Below are positions 7,641 to 53,943 of a DNA stretch of 64,000 bases, in pieces. Every line of letters begins with the position of its first letter. Position 1 is the stretch's first letter. Source of the DNA: Hanleya hanleyi (taxonomy: Eukaryota; Mollusca; Polyplacophora; Lepidopleurida; Hanleyidae); assembly GCA_036873755.1 (NCBI GenBank), contig JAVTVY010037013.1, forward strand, positions 1 through 64,000. The letters are read 5' to 3'. The notes under the pieces were generated by a model. It made no database searches, was not told the DNA's origin, and worked only from the letters and a program-made list of their open reading frames with translations. The translations under genes and the position numbers were made by a program.

Positions 7641-8790
7641 ACATTGTGTAATATAATTTGACTCGGGTACATAAGTCACTGTGTGAATTCTGACCACTTA
7701 TACTCTTTGTAGGAAGGTCTTACACACTTCAACTGTGTATTTAGGTCCCATAACTAAACTTTGATAAAATGCAATTAGCTAGCTCACTCAAATGTTCCTG
7801 ATGATATTGCAATACATGTACTCTGAATACTCTGTGTATTAAAGAAGGTTGGACACACATAAACTATGTATGTAGGTCCTATAACTAAACTGTGATAATG
7901 TGCAATTAACTGGCTTTCTCAAATATCCCTGATCAGTGATAGGTTGGACACACATAAACTATGTATGCATGTCCCATTACTAAACTGTGATAAAATGCAA
8001 TTAAATAATTCTCTCAATTATCCCAGATCAGTGATGTTAAATACATGTACTCGGAATACATAGGTCGCTGTGTGAAGTCCGATCACCTATACTGTGTGTA
8101 GGAAGGTTGGACACACATAAACTATGTATATAGGTCCCAACTAATATGTGATAAAATGCAATTAGCTAGCTCACTCAAATCATTGATATTACATGTACTC
8201 AGAATACATAGGTCGCTGTGTGAAGTCCGATCACCTATACTATGTGTAGGAAGGTTGGACACACATAAACTATGTATGTCGGTCCCATAACTAATCTGTG
8301 ATAAAATGCAATTAACTAGCTCACTCAAGTCAGTGATATAACATGTACTCGGAATACATAGGTCGCTGTGTGAAGTCCGATCACCTATACTCTGTGTAGG
8401 AAGGTTGGACACACATAAACTATGTAGGTAGGTCCCATAACTAATCTGTGATAAAATGCAATTAACTAGCTCACTCAAATGAGTGACGTAACATGTACTC
8501 AGAATACATAGGTCGCTGTGTGAAGTCCGATCACCTATACTATGTGTAGGAAGGTTGGACACACATAAACTATGTATGTAGGTCCCATAACTAATCTGTG
8601 ATAAAATGCAATTAACTAGCTCACTCAAATCAGTGATATAACATGTACTCAGAATACATAGGTCGCTGTGTGAAGTCCGATCACCTATACTATGTGTAGG
8701 AAAGTTGGACACACATAAACTATGTATGTAGGTCCCAAAACTAAACTGTGATAAATGCAATTAACTTGCTCACTCAAATATTTCAGATCA
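7640..8790. repeat. Minisatellite, about 150-bp unit
   Basis: Five well-conserved units begin with GTGTAGGAAGGTTGGACAC at about 8096, 8242, 8394, 8544 and 8694, preceded by degenerate units back to about 7640. The unit length is close to a multiple of three, so a 212-residue minus-strand frame runs through it. Its translation simply repeats with the array, so it is not annotated as a gene. The distal units were copied to 11509-11880 by the tandem duplication. Confidence 0.9.
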
Positions 8791-9596
8791 GTGATATTAA
8801 CAGACAATTATGCCATATGTATACAGTAATATTTCATCATACAGCAGTAAGCTAAAAAAAGTTAATAATAATCATGATGATCATTTTGCATCTTGAAGTT
8901 TTCATTCCTTAGATGAGGAGTGTTATGAGTCTAACATCAGTTGAAAAGGAGGCATCAAACTTATTGTAGGTGGTACCATCTTGGATGTTACTAAACCTCC
9001 CCAGACTCCCTTCCCCATTATTGTAACCCCTGTTACTTGTGGTTTCTGTGATTCATGAATTGGTAGAATTCAATGTTTACATTTTAGCTTTTCATATCTT
9101 TAGTTGTTCATTTGATTGTAAATAGTCTAGTGTTTATTTAGAGCATTCAAAAAGTTAGACCGCGGTTCACAGTTCCTTATTCGTCATCCAGCGACTCATA
9201 GCCGCACCCCAAGCAGCGACCCCTGGCGTCAGATTTGGGATACAAATATGCAAAGATATCGATTCCACATGAACTCTTGTATATAGCTGAAGCTAGGTAT
9301 TCGTACTGTTAGAAATCAGATCTGTTATTAGATTATATCCGAATATGATTTAAATATATGAATTTTATTTCAATTAGTGTGTATTTGTTGATGTATGTTC
9401 TGAAATATCCTTCACTTTCTTACAGGTTGATATACTTTTCACTGATGACTGCAAGAAATAACACTGGGATGTAACTTGGTTGCTCATATGGTTCCGATGT
9501 ATTTGCAAGAATTTAGAATTTAGCTAAATCTGCAAATACATGTACAATTTGCACCACAACAATCCGGTGCAGATTTCATTTAAATCTGCATCTGGA

Positions 9597-10160
9597 TGAA
9601 CGTTAAACCTTGATGTGGTTGTACGTTTAACCTTGATGTGGTTGTACGTTGAACCTATTTCTGAGAAAACATTGAACCTGAATCTGGTTATACGTTGAAC
9701 CAGTAATTGGTTATAGGTAACACCAAATTTTGGTTCAGGGTTTTCCATGGTTAAACGTTGAACCAGAAACTGGTTCAACGTTTACCTTTCGGTTCAACGT
9801 TACACCTTTTCGTGGTTGAACGTTTAACCTCATTTCAGTTCAACGTTAAACCTTGATGTGGTTGTACGTTTAACCTTGATGTGGTTGTACGTTGAACCTA
9901 TTTCTGAGAAAACATTGAACCTGAATCTGGTTATACGTTGAACCAGTAATTGGTTATAGGTAACACCAAATTTTGGTTGAGGGTTTTCCATGGTTAAACG
10001 TTGAACCAGAAACTGGTTCAACGTTTACCTTTCAGTTCAACGTTACACCTTTTCGTGGTTGAACGTTTAACCTCATTTCAGTTCAACGTTGAATTTTGCT
10101 TGGTGCTACGTTGAACCAGTTTATGGTTGCAGCCGGGTTACATCCACTTTATGGTTGAAC
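9597..10160. repeat. Dense array of palindromic GGTTNAACGTTNAACC sites (two 244-bp subunits)
   Basis: At least ten variants lie within each 244-bp subunit, and the subunit is itself directly duplicated (starts about 9597 and 9841). The minus-strand frame through it is a repetitive translation with recurring LVQR motifs and is not treated as a gene. Confidence 0.8.
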
Positions 10161-10974
10161 GTTTACTCAGCGTTTTTACAGTGTGTTTTACAGTCTGTGT
10201 TGTCTGCAGAAGGATGTTGAAGGCGGTGTGAGATCGGTTGGCTCACATGTAGTCCGACCAGCAAGATATGTGCTTGGTTGACTCTTACGACTTATTGTCT
10301 GTGCTCCGCGTTCCAATCTATCGATTTCACTCGTAAAATGCTGCAATCCGAGAACAAAAGGTATAAACCTTCATGACAATGGAACGAATTTGGTGTATTT
10401 TATGCGAGAAATCCCTAAAGAATTCGGTCCCTAACCAACCCGATGTTGATCAGTATAATCCCTCTCTACCGCTTATTTCATCTGTAGCTTCTCGTCAGTC
10501 AGACATGATTAATATGTAACCTTACTCCAACCCCGATGAATCCATGACCATGTCACTGATATATTCAAATTCACGCCTTCGTTGTCAGGTATCCGTTAGT
10601 TGAAGTCTCATATCTCTAGCCAATCACAAGATACCGGATATTGTCCAGTTTGATGACTTCACTCACCTACATCAGTCACAAATCACTCCTATTCTAATCT
10701 TATGCCTCGGAAAATCCGTTCGCCTGAAACCCTGACGTCATCCAGGGGCATAGGGGTCAAAAGTCACATGAGGAGGAAAAGCAATCCTCCATGTTAAACG
10801 CATAGATGGTTAGCTGGCGGTTACACCCTATGTACTGCTCACATGACAGACCAGCGTCACGACCACTGCCACACTGTAGAGTGTAAGATTTTCATTAGGA
10901 TACTAAGCACGTCTGACAATTATTGTTACCTATATGCAGTATATTAGGGTCTATGCCTAGGTGTCCGTCTCCAC

Positions 10975-11508
10975 ATTTGTTCCTATATGCAATATATTGG
11001 GGCAGGGGCGGCGGAACCGGGGGTGCCAGGGGGGGCCAAGGACCACTTTGGCCCCCCCCCCCCAATAATTGCGCTTAACCAATTGGTCTCCATAATAATT
11101 TCGCTCAGCACTAACGCCTATGCATGTGCACGGGTATTTGGAATTTACAATACCATGGTATAGCGTTTCCTGTTCTCCTGTGTAGGCCTAATGGTCTCAA
11201 ACTTGCGACCTATAGCTACTCTACAGAATGCGTTATCGGCAAACTGAGAATTATTCTCGAACTAATGTATAGTCTACCTTCTGGTGATCTCGTGCAAGTA
11301 GTATAAATATCCACGATATCTGTTGATGTGAAAGTTCACGAAGGAGTCCTGTGTGTGGATGTGGTTAAATTCTGTACGGTACTACTGTTCTGATACCTGC
11401 TCTTACTGACACGCTCGCTTAATCAATTTGTCAGACATGTTGAATGAATTTAAATGACTTGTATCTTCCATTTGATATGATAAGGCGGCATTTTGGCCTG
11501 TGCGTGGT
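10975..11508 (+). mobile_element. Truncated left end of non-autonomous CAGGGG transposon
   Basis: Begins CAGGGGCGGCGGAA in the same TATATTGGGG context as the full copy at 14116, and runs to the tandem-duplication junction at 11508, where it is cut. It has no right terminus. Confidence 0.8.
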
Positions 11509-14500
11509 GTGTAGGAAGGTTGGACACACATAAACTATGTAGGTAGGTCCCATAACTAATCTGATAAAATGCAATTAACTAGCTCACTCAAATCAGTGAC
11601 GTAACATGTACTCAGAATACATAGGTCGCTGTGTGAAGTCCGATCACCTATACTATGTGTAGGAAGGTTGGACACACATAAACTATGTATGTAGGTCCCA
11701 TAACTAATCTGTGATAAAATGCAATTAACTAGCTCACTCAAATCAGTGATATAACATGTACTCAGAATACATAGGTCGCTGTGTTAAGTCCGATCACCTA
11801 TACTATGTGTAGGAAAGTTGGACACACATAAACTATGTATGTAGGTCCCAAAACTAAACTGTGATAAATGCAATTAACTTGCTCACTCAAATATTTCAGA
11901 TCAGTGATATTAACAGACAATTATGCCATATGTATACAGTAATATTTCATCATACAGCAGTAAGCTAAAAAAAGTTAATAATAATCATGATAATCATTTT
12001 GCATCTTGAAGTTTTCATTCCTTAGATGAGGAGTGTTATGAGTCTAACATCAGTTGAAAAGGAGGCATCAAACTTATTGTAGGTGGTACCATCTTGGATG
12101 TTACTAAACCTCCCCAGACTCCCTTCCCCATTATTGTAACCCCTGTTACTTGTGGTTTCTGTGATTCATGAATTGGTAGAATTCAATGTTTACATTTTAG
12201 CTTTTCATATCTTTAGTTGTTCATTTGATTGCAAATAGTCTAGTGTTTATTTAGAGCATTCATAAAGTTAGACCGCGGTTCACAGTTCCTTATTCGTCAT
12301 CCAGCGACTCATAGCCGCACCCCAAGCAGCGACCCCTGGCGTCAGATTTGGGATACAAATATGCAAAGATATCGATTCCACATGAACTCTTGTATATAGA
12401 TGAAGCTAGGTATTCGTACTGTTAGAAATCAGATCTGTTATTAGATTATATCCGAATATGATTTAAATATATGAATTTTATTTCAATTAGTGTGTATTTG
12501 TTGATGTATGTTCTGAAATATCCTTCACTTTCTTACAGGTTGATATACTTTTCACTGATGACTGCAAGAAATAACACTGGGATGTAACTTGGTTGCTCAT
12601 ATGGTTCCGATGTATTTGCAAGAATTTAGAATTTAGCAAAATCTGCAAATACATGTACAATTTGCACCACAACAATCCGGTGCAGATTTCATTTAAATCT
12701 GCATCTGGATGAACGTTAAACCTTGATTTGGTTGTACGTTTAACCTTGATGTGGTTGTACGTTGAACCTATTTCTGAGAAAACATTGAACCTGAATCTGG
12801 TTATACGTTGAACCAGTAATTGGTTATAGGCAACACCAAATTTTGGTTCAGGGTTTTCCATGGTTAAACGTTGAACCAGAAACTGGTTCAACGTTTACCT
12901 TTCGGTTCAACGTTACACCTTTTCGTGGTTGAACTTTTAACCTCATTTCAGTTCAACGTTAAACCTTGATGTGGTTGTACGTTTAACCTTGATGTGGTTG
13001 TACGTTGAACCTATTTCTGAGAAAACATTGAACCTGAATCTGGTTATACGTTGAACCAGTAATTGGTTATAGGTAACACCAAATTTTGGTTGAGGGTTTT
13101 CCATGGTTAAACGTTGAACCAGAAACTGGTTCAACGTTTACCTTTCAGTTCGACGTTACACCTTTTCGTGGTTGAACGTTTAACCTCATTTCAGTTCAAC
13201 GTTGAATTTTGCTTGGTGCAACGTTGAACCAGTTTATGGTTGCAACCGGGTTACATCCACTTTATGGTTGAACGTTTACTCAGCGTTTTTACAGTGTGTT
13301 TTACAGTCTGTGTTGTCTGCAGAAGGATGTTGAAGACCATGTGAGATCGGTTGGCTCACATGTAGTCCGACCAGCAAGATATGTGCTTGGTTGACTCTTA
13401 CGACTTATTGTCTGTGCTCCGCGTTCCAATCTACCGATTTCACTCGTAAAATGCTGCAATCCGATAACAAAAGGTATAAACCTTCATGACAATGGAACGA
13501 ATTTGGTGTATTTTATGCGAGAAATCCCTAAAGAATTCGGTCCCTCACCAACCCGATGTTGATCAGTATAATCCCTCTCTACCGCTTATTTCATCTGTAG
13601 CTTCTCGTCAGTCAGACATGATTAATATGTAACCTTACTCCAACCCCGATGAATCCATGACCATGTCACTGATATATTCAAATTCACGCCTTCGTTGTCA
13701 GGTATCCGTTAGTTGAAGTCTCATATCTCTAGCCAATCACAAGATACCGGATATTGTCCAGTTTGATGACTTCACTCACCTACATCAGTCACAAATCACT
13801 CCTATTCTAATCTTATGCCTCGGAAAATCCGTTCGCCTGAAACCCTGACGTCATCCAGGGGCATAGGGGTCAAAAGTCACATGAGGAGGAAAAGCAATCC
13901 TCCATGTTAAACGCATAGATGATTAGCTGGCGGTTACACCCTATGTACTGCTCACATGACAGACCAGCGTCACGACCACTGCCACACTGTAGAGTGTAAG
14001 ATTTTCATTAGGATACTAAGCACGACTGACAATTATTGTTACCTATATGCAGTATATTAGGGTCTATGCCTAGGTGTCCGTCTCCACATTTGTTCCTATA
14101 TGCAATATATTGGGGCAGGGGCGGCGGAACCGGGGGTGCCAGGGGGACCAGGCCCCCCCAATATTCAGAGAGGGAGGGCCAAGGACCACTTTGCCCCCCC
14201 CCCCCCCAATAATTGCGCTTAACCAATTGGTCTCCATAATAATTTCGCTCAGCACTAACGCCTATGCATGTGCACGGGTATTTGGAATTTACAATACCAT
14301 GGTATAGCGTTTCCTGTTCTCCTGTGTAGGCCTAATGGTGTCAAACTTGCGACCTATAGCTACTCTACAGAATGCGTTATCGGCAAACTGAGAATTATTC
14401 TCGAACTAATGTATAGTCTACCTTCTGGTGATCTCGTGCAAGTAGTATAAATATCCACGATATCTGTTGATGTGAAAGTTCACGAAGGAGTCCTGTGTGT

Positions 14501-16160: not shown

Positions 16161-17114
16161 TTGACCACCAGTGTGAATTTTCATGTGCATAGTTAGTTTG
16201 CTCTTTGTGATCAGCTATAGTTACACAATGAATAGTGAAATGCTTTCTCTCCAGTCAGAGTTGTGATATATTACGTCAGTGTATTCTGATGTACAACATA
16301 ACGTACAGACAGGACATTTGAAACGTTTCTCTCTCCCGCCATTTCGCAGGTGTACTCTCATACTCTCTGGTCTGCCCAATGTTACAAGCACAATAAATAA
16401 GTTTCTATCCCTTGAAAGTTCCCAAGTGTCATGTAATTTTGGGTGGTAGCACATATTTGTACACACACATTGGACACTAAAAGTGTTTATCTCAATTGTG
16501 AGTTTTCATGTGTGTAATCAGATTTGTTTGACGTGCACTCATGTAATCACACAATAAACACCTGAAAGGCTCCCCAGTGTGACTTCTCGAGTGTTCTCTC
16601 AAATTCTGCTGCTGTGCACACTTGCAATTACATAAAGAAAACTGGAAAGCTTTCTCTCCTGTGCGAGATCTCAAGTGTGCAATCCGTCTCTGATGTTGTG
16701 TACCGTACATTTATATCCACACAAACACTTGAAAGCTTTCTCTCAGGTGAGAGTTCTGATGTGTGTGATCAAGTTCTGCTGTCGTGTACATTTATACTCG
16801 CATAATGAACACTTAAGTTTCTCTCTAGTGCGACAAATCAGATTTTTTGTGTTGGGTACATCTGTACAATGTGTACCTGAAGGGTTTCTCTCCAATGTGA
16901 GTTCTCCAGTGTGAGTTCTCCTGTGTCGTGTCAAAATCTGCTAGTCTGCACACCTGTAATTACATAATGAGCACTTGAAATGTTTCTCGCCAATGTGCAT
17001 TCCACTGTGCCTTGTCAGGTCATGCTGTTGCCTACATTTATACTCACACAATAAATATGCGAAAGTTCTCAAGTGGCTGGGCAGGTCTTACCGATATGAA
17101 CACGCTAAGGGTTT
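16150..17114 (-). pseudogene. Decayed C2H2 finger tail of zinc-finger gene A
   Basis: Minus-strand translation in shifting frames yields finger fragments such as CSLCEYKCTRQQNLITH and CLLCDYMSARQTNLITH, with frameshifts and stops between them (fragments near 16492-16710 and 16743-16934). It continues the array of the intact gene at 17115-18143 beyond a stop codon. The first post-stop finger lacks part of its cysteine half, and the same lesion occurs in gene B, so decay began before the two genes diverged. Confidence 0.75.
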
Positions 17115-18143
17115 CTATCCAGGGTGAATTTTCATGTGTCTGGTCAGGTCAGGCTGCCCTGTACATCTGTACTGACACAATGAACACGCGAACGGTTTCT
17201 CTCCAGTGTGAGTTCTCATGTGTACGATCAGGCAATGTTGTTGCCTGCATTTATACTCACACAATGAACAAGCGAAGGGTTTCTCTCCAGTGTGAATCAT
17301 CATGTGTCTGGTCAAGCTCCCCGGGTGCTTACACCTGTAGTCACACAATAAACACGAGAAGGGTTTCTGTCCAGTGTGAGTTCTCATGTGTATGGTCAGA
17401 TTATGCTGTCGTATACATTTGTACTCACACAATGAACACGCGAAGGGTTTCTCTCCAGTGTGAATTCTCATGTGTGTATTCAGGTGATACTGTTCTGTAC
17501 ATTTGTATTCACACAATGCACACTTGAAGGGTTTCTCTCCAGTGTGAGTTCTCATGTGTCTGGTCAGGTGATGCTGATTTATACATTTGTATGGACACAA
17601 TAAACACGCAAAAGGTTTCTCTCCAGTGTGAGTTCTCATATGTCTGGTCATGTTACGCTTATCTGCACAACTGTAACTACACAATGAGCACAAGAACGGT
17701 TTCTCTCCAGTGTGAGTTCTCATGTGTTTTGTTAGACTGTCCTGCTTTGGACACTTGTAATCACACAATACACACTTGAAAAGTTTCTCTCCAGTGTGGA
17801 TTCTCATGTGTGTGATTAGGCACTGCCTTTGTTTACATTTATACTCACACAAAGAACAAGCGAAGGGTTTCTCTCCAGTGTGAGTCCTCATGTGTCTTGT
17901 TAGACTCTGCTGCTGTGAACAATTGTAATCACACAACACACACTTGAAAGGTTTCTCTCCAGTGTGGATTCTCATGTGTCTGGCCAGGTTATGCTGTCGC
18001 TTACACTTAAACTCGCACAATGGGCATTTGAAAGGGTCCTCTCCAATGTGAGTTCTCATGTGACTGGCCATGTGATGTTGTTTTTTACACTTATACTCGC
18101 ACAATGAACACTCAAGATGCTTTTTATTGCAGTGAGTATCCAT
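17115..18143 (-). CDS. C2H2 zinc-finger protein A, 12 tandem fingers
   Basis: Encodes 342 residues from the ATG at 18143 (MDTHCNKKHLECS...). I prefer this start to the upstream TTG because the paralogue at 57670 begins at the aligned ATG. Twelve C-x2-C-x12-H-x3-H fingers are joined by TGEKPF linkers, most with an additional Cys in the YKC position before the helix. Such tandem arrays normally bind DNA in the nucleus; the target is unknown. No KRAB, BTB or other effector domain is in frame, so an upstream exon is possible. The frame ends with TAG at 17115-17117, exactly at the Glu codon of a GEKP linker, and decayed fingers follow. It may be a truncated but working gene or an early pseudogene. 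Confidence 0.8.
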   Translation of the reverse strand: MDTHCNKKHLECSLCEYKCKKQHHMASHMRTHIGEDPFKCPLCEFKCKRQHNLARHMRIHTGEKPFKCVLCDYNCSQQQSLTRHMRTHTGEKPFACSLCEYKCKQRQCLITHMRIHTGEKLFKCVLCDYKCPKQDSLTKHMRTHTGEKPFLCSLCSYSCADKRNMTRHMRTHTGEKPFACLLCPYKCINQHHLTRHMRTHTGEKPFKCALCEYKCTEQYHLNTHMRIHTGEKPFACSLCEYKCIRQHNLTIHMRTHTGQKPFSCLLCDYRCKHPGSLTRHMMIHTGEKPFACSLCEYKCRQQHCLIVHMRTHTGEKPFACSLCQYRCTGQPDLTRHMKIHPG

Positions 18144-19152
18144 ACTGTTTATATTCGGATTTCGCTTCAAAATTAAACTGTATCGGGTTAGGACAGATGA
18201 CTCAGGGGAAAATAATTCAAACCGTACAATCTACGGGATCTCAGTCTACTTTCGTTGTACAGGAATAGTATTGGGTCTGTACTGTACCGCTTACTCAATG
18301 GTTCATCTCTCAGATAGGTTCCTGTGGTGAGTGGATATCTACCAGCTCAGATAAGGCTATGTATCTTCGCCTCCTCTGTACTCTGAGGGATAAATACATC
18401 AGATTAATGGCATATAAGTGTACTTTATCACTTGTCAAGTAAGGTTTACAGTATTCATTAACTCTTCATGAATAGGTTACGTTTATTCGGAATTGAATCT
18501 TCTTCTTTTTGGAGTCGTGGGTAAATCTGGTCTTTTGTTTCAATTCTGAACATAAGTGAGTGGGAAAGACAATAGTATATAATAAAAATGACAGATGGTC
18601 AAGCAAAAAGTGCTCCCCGATTCATACCTTGTGTGGTGTATGAATGGTCCATACTCGGGGCTGTGAGTGAGTGAATAGAATTTGACGTCGCTTTCAACAA
18701 TATTTCAGCCATATATCACGACAAACCAACAAAGCACCGCCCAGCCTCTGGGCTTAGAAAGCACTCGGGCCTCCCAGCGGTTATAAACATCCTATATTCT
18801 ATCTTTTCGCAACCGTCCCATGTTTTAGAATATTATAACTGAACTTTCAAAAATATCAAATAAAACAACAACTATTACCAACTATTACCAATGAAAATCG
18901 TGTATAAATGCCCATGAACTTATACCATTGTAGTCAAGTCACTCCGCATGAACAAGAAAACAACTCCCCGAAATACATATTTCAAAACCCACAACATTAC
19001 CTTGTTATATTATATGCTGTATAACTGAGACATATGAAACGGGTATGTAACTCCAAGATGTACGATGCACAATTTAAGCAAAATCACTTTGGTGACCTGG
19101 ATTTCTCACACCGCCAGGATGTTTACTTTATTTGCATGGAGTTGCAAGTAAC
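18144..19152. other. 5' flank of zinc-finger gene A; paralogous block with short-repeat relic
   Basis: About 18170-18440 is similar to 57720-57990 upstream of gene B, including GGACAGATGACTC and a shared TGGTTCATCTCTCA. From about 18470 to 19150 it is similar to pieces of 30850-33090 (for example GAATTGAATCTT, AACAACTCCCCGAAATACATA and GGTGACCTGGATTTC). A relic near 18665-18715 (GTGAGTGAGTGA, then TTTGACGTCGC) resembles a short dispersed repeat known from molluscs. No exon is evident. Confidence 0.6.
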
Positions 19153-19158
19153 AACAGA
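19153..19158. other. Target-site duplication AACAGA (left)
   Basis: AACAGA immediately precedes the element terminus AGTAGTATAT and is repeated exactly at 26351-26356 after the other terminus. Six-base duplications are characteristic of Maverick/Polinton integration. Confidence 0.9.
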
Positions 19159-20620
19159 AGTAGTATATAAAAGACCGATTCCCGCCCATTTATGCAAATT
19201 TCTGGAGCATGTGTGGAGCTCTCGTCCAATCAGAAGCGAGTATTTCAAATCCGTCACAGAGCTCTCGTCCAATCAGAAGCGAGTATTTCAAATTGACCAA
19301 AAAGCTACCTCCAGCACAGGAGAGTTCCAATTTTTCCAGGTCAAAAATAGTTCCATGTATTCATCCGCGGTGATGCGGTTTTGGTGGTGATGCGGTCTGC
19401 TTCCGCGGAGAAAAAGTAGTCCCTAGATAAAATGGTCCGATTGGGTCGAGTGAGGTATCAAAGTGAAGCTTATGTGAAGGGGCATCTAATGGGCTGGGTG
19501 TGGGGTTGAAATATCGGCATTCTGCGCATGCGCGGTGGCCGAAGGGTATGGAAATAGACGTTTTGGAGCTAGGGGAGCCTCTAATGGATCAATGGGGTCG
19601 AGTGAGGTATCAAAGTGAAGCATTCGTGAAGGGGCATCTAATGGGGTGGGTGTGGGGTTGAAATATCGGCATTCTGCGCATGCGCGGTGGCCCAAGGGTA
19701 TGAAAATAGACGTTTTGGAGCTAGGGGAGCTACTAATGGTCCAATGGGGTCGGGTGAGGTATCAATGTGAAGCCTAGGTGAAGGGGTATTTGATGGCTGG
19801 GTGGGTGCATGTAAAATTTTTCCTGAAAAAAAAACGGAACTCGGACTTTATCGAAAAATCCGGGAAAATACCTATATGGGGTATGGGGGGGTATATAGGT
19901 CGCCGGGCTTAACGGGGCTCGCCTATCAATAGAGTTATCTCCCCCTAGTTCCAGGGTGGGTGTATGTAAAAATTTCCCTGAAAAAATACGGAACACGGAC
20001 TTTATTCTAAATTACGGGAAAATGCCTATATGGGGTATGGGAGGTATAGGATCAATGTTTGTCCCCCTGGGAAACCTACTTCTCGACATTTGCTGTATAG
20101 GTTGTGGGGTCTCGTTTTCTTAGTCTCGTCAAGACAAACATGATAGGAAGTGTCGCGAAGCGAAACGGTGAAATTTTTGAAAAAGTACGATATAGCCCCA
20201 TATAGGCCCATACTGGGGTATAGGACCGATGTTTGTCCCCCTGGGAAACCCACTTCTATACATTTGCGGTAGGGTTGTGGGGTCTCGTTTTCTTAGTCTC
20301 GTCATGTAGAACACGATAGGAAGTGTTGTGGAGCGAATCGGTGAAATTTTTGAAAAAGTACGATATAGCCCCATATAGACATATATATATATAAATATAT
20401 ATTCCCATACTGGGGGTATAGGTTCAATGTTTATCCTACTGGGAAACCTACTTCTAGACATTTGCGATAGGGTTGTGGGGTCTCGTTTTTCACGTCTCGA
20501 CATTTAGAACATGATAGGAAGGGTCCCGGAGCGAAACGGTGAAATTTTTGGAAAAAATCACCGAGGCCTGGGTAAGCCCATAGGCCTATAGTGCATGGCT
20601 ATGGGTGTATAGGACCATAC
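19159..20620 (+). repeat. Left terminal inverted repeat (about 1.46 kb)
   Basis: Contains, from the outside in: TATATAAAAG at +5; an octamer ATGCAAAT at 19192-19199; a 42-bp direct duplication carrying CCAATCAGAAGCGAG (about 19217-19292) that is single in the right repeat; three 150-bp subterminal units with GCGCATGCGC; the AACTCTATTGA-type spacer; and three 175-bp inner units. Confidence 0.9.
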
Positions 20621-20643
20621 GGGGTGGACGTGTTGGAATCTAG

Positions 20644-20796
20644 ATGGAGAGGAGTGCCATCACTCACCACTACTGGACTATGACAGCCATCCTTGATGCT
20701 CGGGCTATGGACCACGAGCGCTCACGCCAGAACCAGCGACGGCTGCTTGGCCTCACACTAGTCTGTGCCCTATTGACCCTGGCGCTGTGGCATTGA
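20644..20796 (+). CDS. Small ORF, 50 aa, with C-terminal hydrophobic segment
   Basis: An ATG at 20644 opens a 50-codon frame ending in TGA at 20794-20796. The N-terminal two thirds are polar (MERSAITHHYW...), then basic (RSRQNQRRLL), followed by a hydrophobic stretch LLGLTLVCALLTLALW that could span a membrane near the C terminus. It would be a tail-anchored-like or viroporin-sized peptide. It lies directly inside the left terminal repeat, 67 bp ahead of ORF1 on the same strand. A weak TATAGG at 20608 might serve as its promoter. I do not recognise it, and its short length makes chance opening possible. Confidence 0.4.
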   Translation: MERSAITHHYWTMTAILDARAMDHERSRQNQRRLLGLTLVCALLTLALWH

Positions 20797-20805
20797 CAGC
20801 GGAAC

Positions 20806-20840
20806 TATAAATACGAGAGACAGACACCATGTGTGTCATT
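20806..20840 (+). promoter_or_regulatory. Core promoter of ORF1: TATAAATA plus TCATT initiator
   Basis: TATAAATA at 20806-20813 and TCATT at 20836-20840 are 30 bp apart, start to start. Transcription beginning at the initiator A (20838) would bypass the ATG at 20829, which opens only a short out-of-frame peptide, and would make the ATG at 20864 the first start codon. Confidence 0.65.
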
Positions 20841-20863
20841 CAACGATCGTCATTGGGTCAAGC

Positions 20864-21361
20864 ATGTCACCCGTCCTACGAGCCATCCTGCCCCTTACAC
20901 CCCAGGTGGGGTTACACGTCTATGTAGATAAAGTCACCCTCGTGGAAGATCGGGATGCCTGTGGGTGGAGTTCGGAGTACACATCCACTACCGTTACGCT
21001 GCACCGTGATGGCTGGACCAAATTTAAACGGGTGTTGAGCGGTGAGCTCGACGGAAACCTCATCCACCTCGAGAACGCTAACTATGTACACCGTGGACCC
21101 TTCTTTGCCCGTGTGGGGCGCTACCACGATCCTACGCAAAGCTTCACCCTAGACCCTGATCTGTGGACAGCCTTGGAGAAAGTGGTGCCTATTGTGGACC
21201 AGCTCTTTACACCGGACGAACGGTCATCAGACCAGTTGGGGTGGGCTCGTGCTATTGAGGACACGCTGGCTGAACCCGATGAACAACTGTCTAGTCATGA
21301 ACCAGACGACGACGCTATAGACTATCCGGCTGAACTGAGTCAACCAACACAACAGTGGTAG
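20864..21361 (+). CDS. ORF1, uncharacterised acidic-tailed protein, 165 aa
   Basis: The start is placed at the ATG at 20864 because the frame's earlier codon (20831) is GTG and because the predicted initiator lies at 20838. The first 110 residues look globular, with alternating hydrophobics (VGLHVYVDKVTL, TVTLHRDGWTKFKRVL); the last 50 are rich in Asp, Glu, Ser and Pro (EPDDDAIDYPAE). No signal peptide or membrane segment is apparent. The 'VTLHRDGWTKF' strand-helix pattern loosely recalls small DNA-binding proteins with PC4-like folds, but this is only a hint and I cannot assign a family. It sits between the small TM ORF and the integrase, same strand, with 52 bp to the integrase ATG. The right arm has lost this gene. 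Confidence 0.65.
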   Translation: MSPVLRAILPLTPQVGLHVYVDKVTLVEDRDACGWSSEYTSTTVTLHRDGWTKFKRVLSGELDGNLIHLENANYVHRGPFFARVGRYHDPTQSFTLDPDLWTALEKVVPIVDQLFTPDERSSDQLGWARAIEDTLAEPDEQLSSHEPDDDAIDYPAELSQPTQQW

Positions 21362-21369
21362 AAAGTTGT

Positions 21370-21405
21370 TATAAATAAACCATACTCTCCGGGTCCATCA
21401 TCATT
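21370..21405 (+). promoter_or_regulatory. Overlapping poly(A) signal of ORF1 and TATA box of integrase, with initiator
   Basis: TATAAATA at 21370-21377 overlaps AATAAA at 21374-21379, twelve bases after the ORF1 stop. TCATT at 21401-21405 lies 31 bp from the TATA start and 13 bp before the integrase ATG. The layout is unusually compact for an animal genome. Confidence 0.65.
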
Positions 21406-21413
21406 GTGTCACC

Positions 21414-22187
21414 ATGAAGCGCTGGGAGAAGGTCTTGGATAACTTATACTACAGTCCCGACTGTCCGGCGGCCTATAGTGCACTGTCGGCTCTCTATCGA
21501 GCGGCCAAACCCCAGGGGATACAACGTGCTCAAGTCCGAGATTGGTTAAGAAAACAAGACACCTATACCTTACATCGAGCTGTCCGTCGCCATTTTCTAC
21601 GGAACCGGGTCATCGTGGGAGGAATAGATGCCCAGTGGCAAGTGGATTTGGTCGATATGAGCGCCTTTGCCAAACACAATGATGGGAATCGGTATATCTT
21701 GACGTGCATCGATATCCTATCCAAGTATGCGTGGGTGGTACCCATCCGGACGAAAACGGGGGCGAATCTCATAGCGGCGTTCAAAGACATCTTCAAGACC
21801 GGGCGCAAACCTTTGTATTTGCAAACCGACGAAGGCACGGAATTCCTCAACAGACCGTTCCAAGCCTTTCTCAAGAAACAGAAGGTCTTCTTCTTCCATA
21901 CGTACAACGAGACCAAGGCGTCCGTGGTGGAAAGGTTCAACAGGACATTTAAAGGTCGTATGTATAAATATTTCACCTATAAGAATACAAGGCGGTACAT
22001 CGATGTTCTCCCGAAACTTGTGAGGGGTTACAATCGAGCCTATCATCGAAGTATACAGAGAGCCCCCATTACCGTGACCCAACGCAATGAAGCCCAAGTC
22101 CGGCGTGTCTTGTACCCCATGCCATCGCAACCAGCACCGAAGGCGGTGTACCTTTCCCACCTCCAACACATAAGAGTTCCAATCTAG
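21414..22187 (+). CDS. Maverick/Polinton-type DDE integrase (rve fold), C-terminally short, 257 aa
   Basis: Would catalyse strand transfer of element ends into host DNA. The N-terminal segment (PAAYSALSALYRA, then VRDWLRKQDTYTLHR) and the core are typical of the integrase family annotated in animals as 'F54H12.3-like' transposon proteins. Candidate catalytic residues are D78 (QVDLVDM), D139 (LQTDEGTEF) and E173 (ASVVERFNR), with 33 residues between the last two. A C-terminal GYNRAYHRSI...VLYP block is present, but the chromodomain-like tail usual in full-length relatives is missing: the frame stops at TAG after 257 residues. The start ATG at 21414 has a good context (CACCATGA). It converges on the C2H2 gene, stops 86 bp apart. 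The catalytic core looks intact, so activity is possible. Confidence 0.88.
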   Translation: MKRWEKVLDNLYYSPDCPAAYSALSALYRAAKPQGIQRAQVRDWLRKQDTYTLHRAVRRHFLRNRVIVGGIDAQWQVDLVDMSAFAKHNDGNRYILTCIDILSKYAWVVPIRTKTGANLIAAFKDIFKTGRKPLYLQTDEGTEFLNRPFQAFLKKQKVFFFHTYNETKASVVERFNRTFKGRMYKYFTYKNTRRYIDVLPKLVRGYNRAYHRSIQRAPITVTQRNEAQVRRVLYPMPSQPAPKAVYLSHLQHIRVPI

Positions 22188-22272
22188 GGGGAGGTAACTC
22201 TGGGTGACTATGGAAGCAGTGTCGGATCATGGGCCAATGGCGTCGATATATCTCACTCACTGGATGATCTTC

Positions 22273-22773
22273 TTATAAGAGATCGCTGGGAACATGCACC
22301 GCATCTTCCAGAAAATGTTCGTTGTTGTCAGGTGTATGACTGAAAACAGTAATGCTAGGAACCGGCTGGATATCTAGGCTCTTCTGAGCTGTGGGTATAG
22401 GCGGGCTCTCCGCGATCGCATCACCAGTGGCATTCTTCTCCCCGGGTTCATCTTCAGTGGATCTGTCCCTCCTGGGTGCCTCTTTAGTGGAAAGTTGTCC
22501 CTCATGCCATGGTGACGGACCATGAATCAAACGCTCATGCCGTTTTAACTGACTGGGTCGTCTGAAGAGTTGACCACATTCTTCGCATGGACGCTTGGGT
22601 GGCCCATGAATTGAACGTTCATGGCGCTGAAAATGATCTGGGCGCTGAAACGACAGTGTAGGCCTACATATCGTACAGCTATACCGGGCGGTTCCATCGT
22701 GCTTGGTAGCCTCATGGCGGCGCAAGTCGTGCCGGCGAGTGAACGATTTCGAGCACGTAGTACAAGTGAACAT
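22273..22773 (-). CDS. Element-encoded C2H2 protein, left-arm copy, 166 aa
   Basis: Three zinc fingers: C4-C7-H20-H25, C33-C36-H51-H56 and C63-C66-H79-H84, with x4 or x4-type His spacing. A Pro/Ser/Glu-rich linker follows. It probably binds DNA; self-regulation of the element's ends is a reasonable but untested guess. The ATG at 22773 follows CCAAG and lies 24 bp after a TCAGAC initiator. The frame ends at TAA (22273-22275) after DLL, where the right-arm copy reads TAC (Tyr) and continues 68 residues further. It has a mirror copy at 24146-24850 that differs at a few residues only (for example R81 here, H81 there). Confidence 0.8.
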   Translation of the reverse strand: MFTCTTCSKSFTRRHDLRRHEATKHDGTARYSCTICRPTLSFQRPDHFQRHERSIHGPPKRPCEECGQLFRRPSQLKRHERLIHGPSPWHEGQLSTKEAPRRDRSTEDEPGEKNATGDAIAESPPIPTAQKSLDIQPVPSITVFSHTPDNNEHFLEDAVHVPSDLL

Positions 22774-22791
22774 CTTGGTGGTTGACAGAGT

Positions 22792-22826
22792 GTCTGATGA
22801 AACGGTCAGGCCGTTTCCTTTTTATA
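22792..22826 (-). promoter_or_regulatory. Core promoter of left-arm C2H2 gene
   Basis: On the minus strand, TATAAAAA starts at 22826 and TCAGAC starts at 22797, a spacing of 29 bp. This is the same design as the other element genes. Confidence 0.65.
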
Positions 22827-23234
22827 GCAAGCTAGCTGTTGATCTATTTTTAGCACCATCAGTTCAACTTGGACGGCATCGACAAGAACCCGGATGTAGG
22901 CGCGGACGTCATTGACAAGAGCTCGGATGTCAAAGAACCCGGATGTACCCGGATGTGAATGCGTCTGATGCGTGTGTGTGTGTGTGTGTGTGTATGCGTC
23001 TGTGTGTGTGCGTGTGTGCATGCGCCGAGTTCTAAGAGCCCCAGAGAGAGAACAACAACAACAAGGATGACACATGAGAGAGGACCAATACACATGGACA
23101 CATGTTCATTCCTATATTTAAAGACTCAACCACCACCGCACACCACCAACGCCACCAACACCACCACCAACGCCACCACCAACGCCACCACCGGGCGTTG
23201 ACACACTGCGCCGGGGTCAAAGGTCAGTTCCGGT

Positions 23235-23290
23235 CACGTGAACGGAAGCGGAAGTGACCTCACAGAGGTCATATGCAAATGTCACTTCCG
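23235..23290. promoter_or_regulatory. Palindrome-centre regulatory cluster: E-box, ETS-like sites, octamer (left arm)
   Basis: CACGTG (23235-23240), CGGAAGTGAC (23249-23258), ATGCAAAT (23273-23280) and GTCACTTCCG (23281-23290) lie within 56 bp. The mirrored set is at 23611-23666 in the right arm. These are consensus-like sites for bHLH, ETS and POU factors; binding is inferred only from sequence. Confidence 0.5.
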
Positions 23291-23439
23291 AGATCTGAGC
23301 TCCGCAGGCGTTGAGCTCCAAGAGCTCCGATCCAAGAGCTCTGCCACACGGGAGTTCCCACCACCACCACCGGGCGTAGAGCTCTCGGAGCTCTGCCACA
23401 CCGGGGTTACCACCACCACCACCAACGCCACCACCGGGC

Positions 23440-23720
23440 GTTGACGGGCGTCAACGCCCGGTGGTGGTGGTGGTGGTGGTGGTGGTGGTGGTAACCCCGG
23501 TGTGGCAGAGCTCCGAGAGCTCCACGCCCGGTGGTGGTGGTGGGAACTCCCGTGTGGCAGAGCTCTTGGATCGGAGCTCTTGGAGCTCAACGCCTGTGGA
23601 GCTCAGATCTCGGAAGTGACATTTGCATACGACCTCTGTGAGGTCACTTCCGCTTCCGTTCACGTGACCGGAACTAACCTTTGACCCCGGCGCAGTGCGT
23701 CAACGCCCGGTGGTGGCGTT
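23440..23720. repeat. GGT/CCA trinucleotide and AGAGCTC-rich centre
   Basis: Around the palindrome centre are (GGT)n tracts, longer on the right side, interleaved with repeated GAGCTC blocks. The long frames through this stretch (poly-His or poly-Pro) are microsatellite translations. Confidence 0.75.
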
Positions 23721-24092
23721 GGTGGCGTTGGTGGTGGCGTTGGAGGCGTTGGTGGTGGTGTTGGCGGTGTTGGTGATGTGCGGTGGTGGTAGTCTTTAAA
23801 TATAGGAATGAACATGTGTCCATATGTATTGGTCCTCTCTCATGTGTCATCCTTGTTGTTGTTGTTCTCTCTCCGGGGCTCTTAGAACTCGGCTCATGCA
23901 CACACGCACAGACACACAGACGCATACACACACACACACACACACACGCATCAGACGCATTCACATCCGGGTACATCCGGGTTCTTTGACATCCGAGCTC
24001 TTGTCAATGACGTCCGCGCCTACATCCGGGCTCTTGTCGCTGACGTCCAAGTTGAACTGATGGTGCTAAAAATAGATCAACAGCTAGCTTGC

Positions 24093-24127
24093 TATAAAAA
24101 GGAAACGGCCTGACCGTTTCATCAGAC
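24093..24127 (+). promoter_or_regulatory. Core promoter of right-arm C2H2 gene
   Basis: TATAAAAA at 24093-24100 and TCAGAC at 24122, 29 bp apart; the ATG follows at 24146. Confidence 0.65.
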
Positions 24128-24145
24128 ACTCTGTCAACCGCCAAG

Positions 24146-24850
24146 ATGTTCACTTGTACTACGTGCTCGAAATCGTTCACTCGCCGGCACGACTTGCGCC
24201 GCCATGAGGCTACCAAGCACGATGGAACCGCCCGGTATAGCTGTACGATATGTAGGCCTACACTGTCGTTTCAGCGCCCAGATCATTTTCAGCGCCATGA
24301 ACGTTCAATTCATGGGCCACCCAAGCGTCCATGCGAAGAATGTGGTCAACTCTTTAGACGACCCAGTCAGTTAAAACGGCATGAGCATTTGATTCATGGT
24401 CCGTCACCATGGCATGAGGGACAACTTTCCACTAAAGAGGCACCCAGGAGGGACAGATCCACTGAAGATGAACCCGGGGAGAAGAATGCCACTGGTGATG
24501 CGATCGCGGAGAGCCCGCCTATACCCACAGCTCAGAAGAGCCTAGATATCCAGCCGGTTCCTAGCATTACTGTTTTCAGTCATACGCCTGACAACAACGA
24601 ACATTTTCTGGAAGATGCGGTGGATGTTCCCAGCGATCTCTTATACGAAGATCATCCAGTGAGTGAGATATATCGACGCCATTGGCCCATGATCCGACAC
24701 TGCTTCCATAGTCACCCAGAGTTACCTCCCCCTAGATTGGAACTCTTCTGTGTTGGAGGTGGGAAAGGTACACCGCCTTCGGTGCTGGTTGCGATGGCAT
24801 GGGGTACAAGACACGCCGGACTTGGGCTTCATTGCGTTGGGTCACGGTAA
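24146..24850 (+). CDS. Element-encoded C2H2 protein, right-arm copy with extended C terminus, 234 aa
   Basis: Same three fingers and linker as the left-arm copy. Where that copy stops, this one reads TAC instead of TAA and continues for 68 residues (YEDHPVSEIYRRHWPM... to GLHCVGSR). The last 40 residues are the antisense of the integrase C-terminal region, so that part is unlikely to be an evolved domain. In a full unit this reading would make the C2H2 and integrase genes overlap tail to tail. Which state is ancestral cannot be told from two copies. The promoter is intact, so both arms could express a C2H2 protein. Confidence 0.72.
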   Translation: MFTCTTCSKSFTRRHDLRRHEATKHDGTARYSCTICRPTLSFQRPDHFQRHERSIHGPPKRPCEECGQLFRRPSQLKRHEHLIHGPSPWHEGQLSTKEAPRRDRSTEDEPGEKNATGDAIAESPPIPTAQKSLDIQPVPSITVFSHTPDNNEHFLEDAVDVPSDLLYEDHPVSEIYRRHWPMIRHCFHSHPELPPPRLELFCVGGGKGTPPSVLVAMAWGTRHAGLGLHCVGSR

Positions 24851-24901
24851 TGGGAGCTCTCTGTATACTTCGATGATAGGCTCGATTGTAACCCCTCACA
24901 A
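24732..24901 (-). pseudogene. Integrase remnant (residues 203-257) in right arm
   Basis: Mirror copy of the integrase C terminus from VRGYNRAYH to the TAG stop. It lacks all catalytic residues and the promoter because of the right-arm deletion. The upstream sequence is directly the inner edge of the right terminal repeat. Confidence 0.88.
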
Positions 24902-26350
24902 GTATGGTCCTATACACCCATAGCCATGCACTATAGGCCTATGGGCTTACCCAGGCCTCGGTGATTTTTTCCAAAAAATTCACCGTTTCGCTCCGGGACC
25001 CTTCCTATCATGTTCTAAATGTCGAGACGTGAAAAACGAGACCCCACAACCCTATCGCAAATGTCTAGAAGTAGGTTTCCCAGTAAGATAAACATTGAAC
25101 CTATACCCCCAGTATGGGAATATATATTTATATATATATATATGTCTATATGGGGCTATATCGTACTTTTTCAAAAATTTCACCGATTCGCTCCACAACA
25201 CTTCCTATCGTGTTCTACATGACGAGACTAAGAAAACGAGACCCCACAACCCTACCGCAAATGTATAGAAGTGGGTTTAGAAGTGGGTTTCCCAGGGGGA
25301 CAAACATCGGTCCTATACCCCAGTATGGGCCTATATGGGGCTATATCGTACTTTTTCAAAAATTTCACCGTTTCGCTTCGGGACACATCCTATCATGTTT
25401 GTCTTGACGAGACTAAGAAAACGAGACCCCACAACCTATACCGCAAATGTCGAGAAGTAGGTTTCCCAGGGGGACAAACATTGATCCTATACCTCCCGTA
25501 CCCCATATAGGCATTTTCCCGTAATTTAGAATAAAATCCGTGTTCCGTATTTTTTCAGGGAAATTTTTACATACACCCACCCTGGAACTAGGGGGAGATA
25601 ACTCTATTGATAGGCGAGCCCCGTTAAGCCCGGCGACCTATATACCCCCCCCCTCCCCATACCCAATATAGGTATTTTCCCGGATTTTTCGATAAAGTCC
25701 GAGTTCCGTTTTTTTTTCAGGAAAAATTTTACATGCACCCACCCAGCCATCAAATACCCCTTCACCTAGGCTTCACATTGATACCTCACTCGACCCCATT
25801 GGACCATTAGTAGCTCCCCTAGCTCCAAAACGTCTAGTTTCATACCCTTGGGCCATCGCGTATGCGCAGAATGCCGATATTTCAACCCCACACCCACCCC
25901 ATTAGATGCCCCTTCACGAATGCTTCCCTTTGATACCTCACTCGACCCCATTGGTCCATTAGGGGCTCCCCTAGCTCCAAAACGTCTATTTCCATACCCT
26001 TCGGCCACCTCGCATGCGCAGAATGCCGATATTTCAAACCCACACCCAGCCCATTAGATGCCCCTTCACATAAGCTTCACTTTGATACCTCACTCGACCC
26101 AATCGGACCATTTTATCTAGGGACTACTTTTTCTCCGCGGAAGCTTTTTCCCGCGACCGCATCACCACCAAAACCGCATCACCGCGGATGAATACATGGA
26201 ACTATTTTTGACCTGGAAAAATAGGAACTCTCCTGTGCTGGAGGTAGCTTTTTGGTCAATTTGAAATACTCGCTTCTGATTGGACGAGAGCTCCATACAT
26301 GCTCCACAAATTTGCATAAATGGGCGGGAATCGGTCTTTTATATACTACT
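24902..26350 (-). repeat. Right terminal inverted repeat (about 1.45 kb)
   Basis: Reverse complement of 19159-20620 with scattered substitutions, a single CCAAT-type segment instead of two, an extra 18-bp 'GAAGTGGGTTT' duplication near 25270, and mutated GCGCATGCGC sites (GCGTATGCGC near 25860, TCGCATGCGC near 26010). The octamer in reverse (ATTTGCAT) is at 26310-26317, 33 bp from the end, matching the left repeat. Confidence 0.9.
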
Positions 26351-26356
26351 AACAGA
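26351..26356. other. Target-site duplication AACAGA (right)
   Basis: Exact copy of 19153-19158. A paralogous, uninterrupted version of the target lies near 33070-33110 (TTGCATGGGGTTGCATG, then TTAACAGAGTAAGGCCAGA), consistent with the inferred insertion point. Confidence 0.9.
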
Positions 26357-29619: not shown

Positions 29620-30850
29620 CGCTTTATGTAAGAAGTGTTCCCTTACTGTCACACTAACTGTATTCATTAACACTTCAGGGATACTTTATGTAAGAAGCGT
29701 TCCCTTACTCTCACACTAACTGTATTCATTAACACTTCAGCGATACTTTCTGTAAGAGGTGTTCCCTTACTGTCACACTAACTGTATTCATTAACACTCC
29801 AGGGATACTTTATGTAAGAAGTGTTCCCTTACTGAGACACTAACTGTATTCATTAACACTTCAGGGATACTTTATGTAAAAAGTGTTGTCACACTAAATG
29901 TATTCATTAACACTTCAGGTATACTTAATAAAAAATTGTTCCCTTACAGTCACACTAACTGCATTCATTAACACTTCAGGGATACTTGATGTAAGAAGTG
30001 TTCTCTTACTGTCACAGTTACTGTATTTATTAACACTTCAGGTATATTTTGTGTAAGAAGTGTTCCCTTAACGTCACACTAACTGTATTCATTAACACGT
30101 CAGGGATACTTTATGTAAGGTGTGTTCCCTTACTGTCACACTAACTCTATTCATTAACACTTCAGGGATATTTTATGTAAGAAGTGATCCTTTACTCTCA
30201 CACTAACTGTATTCATTAACACTTCAGGGATATTTATGTAAGAAGTGATCCCTTACTGTCACACTAACTGTATTCATTAACACTCCAGGGATACTTTATG
30301 TAAAAAGTGTTCGCTTACTGTCACTCTTAACTGCATTCATTAACACTTCAGGGATACTTTTGTAAGAAGTGATCTTTTACTCTCACACTAACTGTATTCA
30401 TTAACACTTCAAGGATATTTTATGTAAGAAGTGATCCCTTACTGTCACACTAACTGTATTCATTATCATTTCAGGGATACTTTATGTAAGAAGTGTTCGC
30501 TTACTGTCACACTAACTGTATTCATTAACATTTCAGGGATACTTATGTAAGAAGTTATCCCTTACTGTCACACTAACTGTATTCATTAACATTTCAGGGA
30601 TACTTTATGTAAGAAGTGTTCGCTTACTGTCACTCTAACTGTATTCATTAACACTTCAGGGATACTTTTGTAAGAAGTGATCTTTTACTCTCACACTAAC
30701 TGTATTCATTAACACTTCAGGGATACTTTATGCAAGAAGTGTTCCCTTAATGTCACACTAAGTGTATTCATTAACACTTCAGGGTTACTTTATATAAGAA
30801 GTTACCCCTTACTGTCACACTAACTGTATTCATTAGCACTCCAGGGATAG
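29620..30850. repeat. 62-bp minisatellite, about 20 copies
   Basis: Units carry TTATGTAAGAAGTGTTCCC and ACTGTATTCATTAACACTTC. The array stops at GGTTACGTTTATACGGAATTG, and the paralogous position at 18450-18500 has only one unit-like TATTCATTAACTCTTCATG before the same downstream sequence, so the array grew locally. Confidence 0.92.
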
Positions 30851-52545: not shown

Positions 52546-53479
52546 CCATGGGCCCAGGCATATATCGGTACCATCAGAGGAAACCAAACTTTAGGGCTAC
52601 TAAGTTATTGGTAGGGACTATATGATTATTTCAATATGTGATCATCATAACCGTTCCAGAAGAGCAGCTTAGTGTATATTTTGCATTTTTACCATTTTAC
52701 CATTCTGAGATATTGACTTTTTTTGGGGGAAAATCACACAATGGACTACTGACACATCCCATGAAGGTAATATCATTCAATAACAGCTCCGAATATCCAG
52801 AATTGTTATCTGCACAGTTACAACAAGCATACTTCCCATCTTGAGGCACATGCTTTAGTTTGGTATTCAAACGGCTGATTTACACGCTGGATTTTGTGAA
52901 ATTTTGCGGATTTATTATTATCATTATTTACGGAATGTTGTGTGTCCCATATGAGTGCCACAGTCCTAATGGATCAGCTACCCATATGTACCTTGTTTGC
53001 AGGGAAGCACAAAGGAGGACGATCCAGCTGATTTCAACAAAGTTGTAGAATTTTTCCTTCCCATACCCCCGAAATGCACACTGCGGCTGAATATATGAAA
53101 ATTACAATGTAGCTCAAATTTGATATAATCTTTCGCCCCACCACAAATGTTTCAGGTTGTGCACACTGGAAAGTATATAAATGTATTTTATAATGTCATA
53201 AGTGTATTTAATTTCAGATTTTAGTAGCAAAACAGATCATTTCAGGTAAATAAGAAGCTCAAGTCATATAGTATAATAAATACTGGTCCTAGGGGGCCAC
53301 ACCTGCAATAACACTGGTGAAAACCCAGACTCCTACTTGCCCGTTTTGTTTTCTAGGTTATATCTAGTATTTATTGTTTAGTATCTGCGGGTGCAAGTTT
53401 CGGGTTATTTTAGGTCGAAAATTCTTATTTCTGACCAGCGAAACCCTCATCAGGGAGCCTATACGCATTGACAGTTATG

Positions 53480-53943
53480 GTCAGATTTCATATTTTTTTC
53501 AGTATTTCACTGATGCTTTTACCCGCCTATAGCATAATTGTGGCGGGCTGGTAAAGTTTTCGGCATATTTGTTTGTGATCCAGTATTTCTTTAAGATCCC
53601 TTTCAGCCATTTTGTGTATGGATTGAAAGTCGTTATGACGCATACGTCGTTTCAGTACAGACTTATTCTGTATGCCCTCGTTCCTCTTGAGGTATTTGTT
53701 TCTGTCGGTAATTTTCGAGGTAGAGTATCCTCTCTTTTTAAGCTTTTGCTTGAAGTATTCTGACTAGTCTATCTAGTCTGCAGTATTATTGCAGTTTCGT
53801 ATACCTATCTTTCAGTTCTCCCGTAATGTGCTGATTTGCTGTATAGGTATTTGTAGGTTTCAGTTGGCTTTGTTTAGCATTTCACATCAAGTATTGAGTC
53901 AGTCGAACATCTTTTCGCCTTGAAAACGGCAACGTCTAGATAT
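53480..53943 (-). pseudogene. Reverse transcriptase fragment (left arm)
   Basis: Inverted copy of the right-arm RT from LDVAVFKGKR through the thumb-like region. It is broken off before the catalytic box at about 53943, where a plus-strand RT fragment begins. Confidence 0.62.

Follow-up and report, generated by a model that had tools for sequence, protein, structure and literature searches.

A 7,192-bp element of the chiton Hanleya hanleyi, located at positions 19159-26350 of the 64,000-nt stretch of contig JAVTVY010037013.1 that was analysed here (the window), is an inverted dimer with the hexamer AACAGA on either side. It appears likely that this element and its relatives represent a class of non-autonomous palindromic satellites of Polintons (Mavericks), which were formed by snap-back and mobilised in trans. 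The satellite class itself, which the initial annotation of the window had put forward as a possibility, is well supported, as palindromes were identified at 23 of 28 genomic centres examined by the inner arm. Snap-back is the favoured mechanism, and we infer both it and protein priming from the organisation of the copies.

The ends of the element, AGTAGTATATAAAA... starting at 19159 and the reverse complement of AGTAGTATATAAAA finishing at 26350, lie between the two target-site duplication copies AACAGA that were read in the sequence at 19153-19158 and 26351-26356. The left arm spans 19159-23447 (4,289 bp), and the right arm (23448-26350, minus strand, 2,903 bp) is its reverse complement minus about 1.4 kb. 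The description of a giant palindrome with an intact 6-bp duplication was therefore accurate with respect to the inverted dimer and the exact AACAGA copies, but the arm duplication is not entire, as left-arm positions ~20620-22015 are missing at a right-arm junction (24902/24903) with ~2 bp of microhomology, read by eye. The right arm retains the last 56 integrase codons, which indicates that the integrase block was once in both arms; most of the integrase is now single-copy. Substitutions between the arms amount to 21/1,417 (1.5%) in the outer 1.46 kb, 14/1,111 (1.3%) in the inner arm (22016-23128) and 12/319 (3.8%) in the GT/ACC-rich core. Thus the outer and inner parts diverge alike, as expected from one event, with a higher value for the repetitive core. 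Arms of kilobase length that are 98-99% identical are beyond chance, and the palindrome is confirmed as real. Comparison of the 2-kb host flanks, left versus right, revealed no match in inverted orientation at E < 1.7, and the mirror therefore stops at the element ends.

Related copies are numerous in the 2.48-Gb genome. With the 40 best candidates scored in each search, the left terminal block (19159-20646, plus strand), which bears the AGTAGTATATAAAA end, gave at least 61 matches, of which 20 pieces from 18 contigs were taken for analysis; it is ~90-98% identical to other copies, and the likeness stops at ~20647. The inner arm gave at least 44 matches at 96% identity or more on at least 35 contigs. 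The 28 of these contigs whose centres were examined comprised the window element, 20 further ones, and C39064, C22600, C43492, C1042, C29962, C13797 and C47121. Among the 23 palindromic centres, which include the window, 21 have an inverted inner-arm partner and two (C13797 and C43492) are palindromic in other blocks. Three centres run into a contig end (C13385, C32747, C47121), and two are non-palindromic, namely C36467, a direct repeat, and C17315, where a polymerase gene follows. Inverted self-alignment identified end-to-end palindromes in C45808 (9.66 kb) and C1042 (~13 kb, with a complex centre), whereas C28468 is palindromic over its central 5.7 kb, C29962 over the centre and inner arms, and C13797 with a left-arm deletion; the C45808 and C28468 palindromes lie outside the 28 examined centres. 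C19343 (L017), a former candidate palindrome, was dropped from the counts, because all that its left arm retains is the terminal block and repeats. Another palindromic type (C45808, C6550, C30534) instead carries a zinc-finger plus ATPase open reading frame (ORF), which in C45808 is 43% identical to a Polinton ATPase. This zinc-finger/ATPase block has at least 40 matches on at least 38 contigs at 97% or more among the best 40 scored, with palindromy examined in few of them. Integrase sequence was present in none of the 20 pieces of related copies. In addition, in one member of the same family (L019, C12663) two terminal blocks point the same way at a distance of 6.6 kb, and so are arranged in tandem.

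The element ends are equally recurrent. The end pattern AGTAGTATATAAAANNNNRATTCCCNCNC was matched 57 times in forward and 63 times in reverse orientation (120 in total), with no match in the reversed control. A 6-bp target duplication is the length characteristic of the Polinton/Maverick family, and exact 6-bp duplications flank 12 of 14 family end-pairs, palindromic or not; the two inexact cases are C34216 (5/6 bases) and C1042 (3/6). Seven of these end-pairs are palindromes (the window element, C45808, C30534, C20638, C6550, C40758 and C1042), six of them with an exact duplication of their own. Together with the presence of palindromes at many sites and a mirror that ends at AACAGA, this supports the proposal that the inverted dimer itself was integrated. 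Ten end-pairs picked by the end motif were also probed at 36% of their length: four are palindromic (C6550, C20638, C30534, C40758), four are non-palindromic (C13661, C15411, C23035, C37706), and two match parts of a full Polinton (C32316, C12988). Both samples thus contain palindromes at different target sites, as the initial annotation had anticipated, and its alternative expectation, that all relatives might be non-palindromic, does not describe this genome.

The suggested affinity to Mavericks/Polintons was borne out, since the ends, 6-bp duplications and integrase tie the window element to full Polintons of the same genome. Ends of the AGTAGTATATA type are common to the window family and to two full-length elements, C48071 and C12652, and full-length relatives with the same ends had indeed been predicted. 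C48071 (140081-155745, 15.7 kb) starts with AGTAGTATATAGCC, has the palindromic 6-bp duplication GGCGCC, and possesses a subterminal ATTGACCTACTT common to several copies of the palindrome family; the 1.49-kb terminal block of the window element was not found in it, and only the end motif and short subterminal pieces are common to both. In C12652 the paired AGTAGTATATAAAA ends are separated by 15.8 kb; the duplication is TGCATA, and an integrase block lies ~0.6 kb inside. The 357-residue integrase of C48071 is an uninterrupted ORF with a chromodomain, and its A32-like ATPase has weak Pfam matches to Adeno_IVa2 and Pox_A32, both under the curated cut-offs. The antisense polymerase-like gene, in two ORFs, is one that we take to be a polymerase by a weak PHROG match, its position and its motifs, and the capsid-like and protease-like ORFs are presumably such by position and resemblance only; neither has a Pfam match, and the capsid-like ORF has no PHROG match either. 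Full-length relatives had been expected to encode both a type B polymerase and a capsid; C48071 has a polymerase-like gene and, by resemblance only, a capsid ORF. The polymerase-like ORF (L030:714-2972, minus strand) also contains a Vsr-like stretch at residues 261-338 (PDB 1odg/1vsr, E 0.008; PHROG endonuclease, E 0.0017). Possible helpers, as judged from their gene content, would include the at least 39 integrase-block copies at 96-97% identity and C48071 with its integrase and chromodomain, ATPase and polymerase-like gene.

The genes of the window element are reduced in comparison. Its truncated integrase ORF (21414-22187, plus strand, 257 residues), found in the left arm only, contains an RVE integrase core. 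Of 2,350 candidate proteins, 2,110 match this ORF with an E-value of 0.001 or lower; the relatives with the top scores are 71% identical, and one of them is named, from the chiton Liolophura sinensis. The homology ends at ~22150, and the chromodomain of the relatives is absent. The genome search with the integrase block (40 scored matches, window included) identified 39 further copies at 96-97%, all stopping at query positions 1510-1513 (~22150), which indicates that the window integrase is cut there and continues into zinc-finger tail sequence. Each arm also bears a C2H2 zinc-finger/polymerase-N-terminal ORF: the left one (22273-22773, minus strand) has a premature stop, and the right one (24146-24850, plus strand, 234 residues) runs into antisense integrase sequence. 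The palindromic copy C1042 has longer versions of 324 and 307 residues, whose C-terminal halves match the N-terminus of the C48071 polymerase-like ORF at 64% and 67%; the zinc-finger ORFs are therefore interpreted as truncated polymerase N-termini with C2H2 fingers. Hence the view that the element lacks polymerase and capsid genes was half right: no capsid ORF was recognised, but a polymerase fragment is present in both arms, which is an N-terminal piece rather than a protein-primed type B polymerase. No ATPase, protease or capsid was recognised among the ORFs of 19159-26350, and this gene set together with the 7.2-kb size identifies a non-autonomous derivative rather than a Polinton proper. 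A 176-residue ORF (20831-21361, plus strand, mechanical GTG start) without a Pfam match occurs in the left arm only and has a 165-residue relative in C48071 that begins MSPVLRAIL. Variants of the zinc-finger ORF confined to a single arm gave no evidence of purifying selection (69 nonsynonymous to 21 synonymous, plus one stop; site ratio 3.5), and the window left arm is alone among 48 arms, many of them partial, in having a stop within the first 189 codons. The plain reading of these variants would be neutral decay of the ORFs after insertion of the palindromes. Scans of viral contigs with the integrase, the integrase alignment and the zinc-finger/polymerase ORF identified no relative.

The axis of the window element lies at 23447/23448, where it had been placed, but the loop proposed to be of six bases has 2 nt (GG) and closes a 19-bp stem. 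This perfect 40-nt hairpin, hp1 (23428-23467; CCACCACCGGGCGTTGACG-GG-CGTCAACGCCCGGTGGTGG), is the exact axis. Five hairpins in the window combine a stem of 12 bp or more with a loop no longer than 6 nt, and hp1 has the longest stem of them. Among 31 scanned pieces from centres or termini, 25 contain hp1 when up to two substitutions are allowed, 12 of them twice; with up to five allowed, there are 33 sites, 22 of them identical. A second perfect palindrome, hp2, was found in nine of the 31 pieces, at or beside the self-inverted centre in L033 and L039, and two versions of its stem differ by a compensatory pair, G-C versus T-A (11 sites). The core segment C of the left arm (23208-23446, plus strand) is joined to the arm via a half-hp1/half-hp2 scar at ~23190-23210, and a near-identical scar is present in the right arm. 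Of 25 pieces read inward from the left arm, 20 have their first core in reverse sense and three (the window, L025 and L042) in forward sense, while the core is absent in two; L045 and L025 resemble flip and flop of one layout. As a separate observation, the core in L049 (C17315:17435-18735) is flanked by a zinc-finger ORF on one side and, on the other, by a Polinton polymerase N-terminus that points the opposite way (82.7% to C48071), and might there be a divergent promoter region.

The non-palindromic monomer C37706:9324-15904, with terminal repeats of 0.88 kb at 97.75%, provides a reference for the palindrome centre. It contains, in order, one ATPase gene (N-terminus toward the right end), hp1, a partial core, an imperfect hairpin and the right terminal repeat. 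Since hp1 and the core lie near its right end, the palindrome centre corresponds to the right subterminal region of the monomer, and the right terminal repeat is absent from the palindromes.

With regard to arm history, inner arms within an element diverge by 0.4-2.9% in 21 of 22 elements and by 5.6% over 125 sites in L046, and those of different elements by 1.6% on average, in the manner of a star-like burst; the sequence closest to an arm is often not that of its partner. Minor alleles common to both arms of one element number 26 versus a permuted mean of 4.4 (0 of 10,000 permutations; 22 elements), or 19 versus 3.9 minus the window copy (0 of 10,000), and 11 of the 22 elements have none. 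Terminal blocks diverge by 1.0-1.5% within C45808, C19343, C13797 and the window element, by 5.9% within C1042, and by 2.8-8.7% between elements. The window element has six private changes in both arms, ten in the left arm only and four in the right arm only. As its integrase block, core orientation, hairpin scar and the six private changes are in both arms, this copy was probably re-made from one arm, and the right arm later lost 1.4 kb.

Protein-primed strand displacement is established in adenovirus and phi29, and that of Polintons is inferred from their polymerase; to our knowledge it has never been watched directly. If the helper replicates in this way, a duplex broken at its right end but intact at its left would still initiate at the left. 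The displaced strand would have its 3' end at the right and, if this lay just beyond hp1 or hp2, could fold and prime itself; the fold-back site would be hp1 in the window copy and, elsewhere, either hp2 or a position with a core on each side. Its 3' end would then be extended to the left end, and the next initiation there would, by copying the hairpin, give a linear inverted dimer that has two left ends and hence two origins and two integrase sites. The integrase of a helper Polinton could insert this dimer in trans, after which it would multiply as a palindrome, arm-to-arm copying keeping the arms alike. For the window copy one extra round is envisaged, in which one arm was rearranged and then folded at hp1. 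This model accounts for which end is doubled, the loss of the right terminal repeat, the window hairpin axis common to the monomer, the coupling of arms, and the suitability of two functional ends for an integrase. Snap-back had already been suggested in the initial annotation and is still favoured as an interpretation, but arm swapping between elements also occurs and must be added to the model. More tentatively, and somewhat short of an even chance, Polintons may generate adenovirus-like symmetric snap-back genomes that in this animal lineage became self-perpetuating satellites, with two copies of one origin and with hp1/hp2 serving as sites of fold-back or turn-around; their central segment would flip and flop, and each re-making would homogenise the arms.

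Several observations weigh against snap-back from a protein-primed helper, or limit how far it can be extended. The axis falls exactly on hp1 in the window copy only, whereas in the remaining palindromes it is either at a single core or in the space that separates two. No hp1 was detected in six of the 31 pieces (C45808, L032, L041, L047, L048 and the second monomer C13661). Protein priming is not reinforced by the polymerase-like ORFs, which have no Pfam polymerase match, that of C48071 giving a weak PHROG match (E 0.12). Zinc-finger ORF variants shared by the arms (13 nonsynonymous to 6 synonymous) give no sign of selection in these putatively mobile elements. Palindromes are not the sole small form, given the four non-palindromic and two full-Polinton-like end-pairs among the ten probed. 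Wherever the arms of a palindrome could be oriented, it is the same end that is doubled, and this fits a single inherited old fold-back as well as repeated fold-backs. Two points lower confidence slightly: the restriction of the exact hairpin axis to the window copy and the possible misassembly of C1042.

The most serious alternative, which we nevertheless regard as rather unlikely, is that two separate molecules lacking right ends, not one folded strand, were joined by head-to-head fusion or by crossing-over in the core. Heterogeneous arms speak for it: L014 and L044 have one arm type in common (four variants) with unlike other arms, the ZF2 ORFs of the two arms of L026 are unlike, and the ends of C1042 differ (5.9%) and lack a matching duplication. 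These mismatches indicate that recombination between elements builds arms too and, as such, also count against snap-back as the only process. However, fusion of independent molecules is at odds with the arm coupling within elements, with paired terminal blocks that diverge by only 1.0-1.5% in four of five elements, and with a window axis on a perfect hairpin also carried by the monomer. A classical fold-back transposon, with inverted repeats grown by unequal exchange or conversion and no tie to Polinton replication, could explain the tandem repeats inside the arms and the variable central segments in both orientations, but is improbable: the ends, which are found in common with full Polintons, the 6-bp duplications and the fragments of polymerase-like, ATPase and integrase genes tie the family to Polintons of the same genome.

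Two further explanations have very little probability. An inverted duplication in place, following an ordinary Polinton insertion at the window locus, would suit the private features of this copy (integrase block and opposite core orientation). These features are in both arms, however, the mirror ends exactly at the duplications, and many palindromic copies exist elsewhere, with their own duplications in six of the seven whose ends were both read; in-place duplication is already contradicted by the palindromes at other sites and was rejected. An assembly or sequencing artefact, such as reads folded through a missed hairpin adapter, is similarly remote. Long palindromes are hard to assemble, three of 28 centres lie at contig ends, and C1042, with its unlike ends and lacking duplication, could be misassembled. 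The artefact that the initial annotation had named as a possible refutation was nonetheless rejected: the arms differ by single-nucleotide changes and insertions or deletions, the window host flanks are unmirrored, exact 6-bp duplications surround the elements, and more than 20 copies agree.

Other repeats in the window include a second, unrelated palindrome at 52541-55701 with 1.40-kb arms at 97.2% (52541-53946 and 54303-55701); it has no DNA match to the Polinton set and may consist of two retroelement fragments in inverted orientation. A near-identical duplication at ~8500-14500, whose period is ~3.1 kb, contains a 15-bp-stem hairpin (TAAACGTTGAACCAG) four times. In addition, 84-bp repeats at 17012-18170 in a 351-residue minus-strand ORF resemble, by eye, a C2H2 finger array, and a 62-bp tandem repeat of about six units occupies 29622-29998.

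Both non-autonomous Polintons and the symmetric defective genomes of adenovirus are already known, the latter, with a duplicated left end, arising by snap-back in protein-primed replication. If the more tentative reading is true, genomic fossils would record the protein-primed replication of Polintons. A multi-copy family of inverted dimers built around hairpins close inside one end would provide evidence at genome scale of a replicon that is linear and end-primed, as well as of defective genomes that depend on helpers and parasitise Polintons, and it offers a testable route for the origin and spread of long palindromes in animal genomes. No description of palindromic Polintons or of families of them was found in the portions covered of a small open-licence literature sample (including PMC5033970, PMC4028283 and PMC2836005).

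In comparison with known systems, the family of the window element resembles Polintons/Mavericks in its terminal inverted repeats, which have AG...CT ends and begin with AGTAGTATATA, in its 6-bp duplications, in fragments of polymerase-like and packaging-ATPase-like genes and, in the window copy, in an RVE integrase core from which the chromodomain is cut off. Polintons are described, in the part of PMC4028283 consulted, as 15-20 kb long with ATPase, protease and capsid genes; unlike them, the window element is 7.2 kb and palindromic, with no capsid, no complete polymerase and a truncated integrase. In general organisation it is also similar to FB and Galileo, in consisting almost wholly of inverted repeats. 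FB and Galileo have different ends, transposase type and duplication length, and are not known to have a link to a viral-type helper. The part of PMC5033970 consulted cites Daniell 1976 and Daniell and Mullenbach 1978 in connection with the left-end adenovirus DNA of intermediate particles and not with palindromes. As in adenovirus symmetric defective genomes, one genome end is observed at both termini of the family members, with an inverted-repeat junction; unlike those genomes, the family is integrated, present in many copies and passed on in palindromic form, and a hairpin recurs at or close to its axis.

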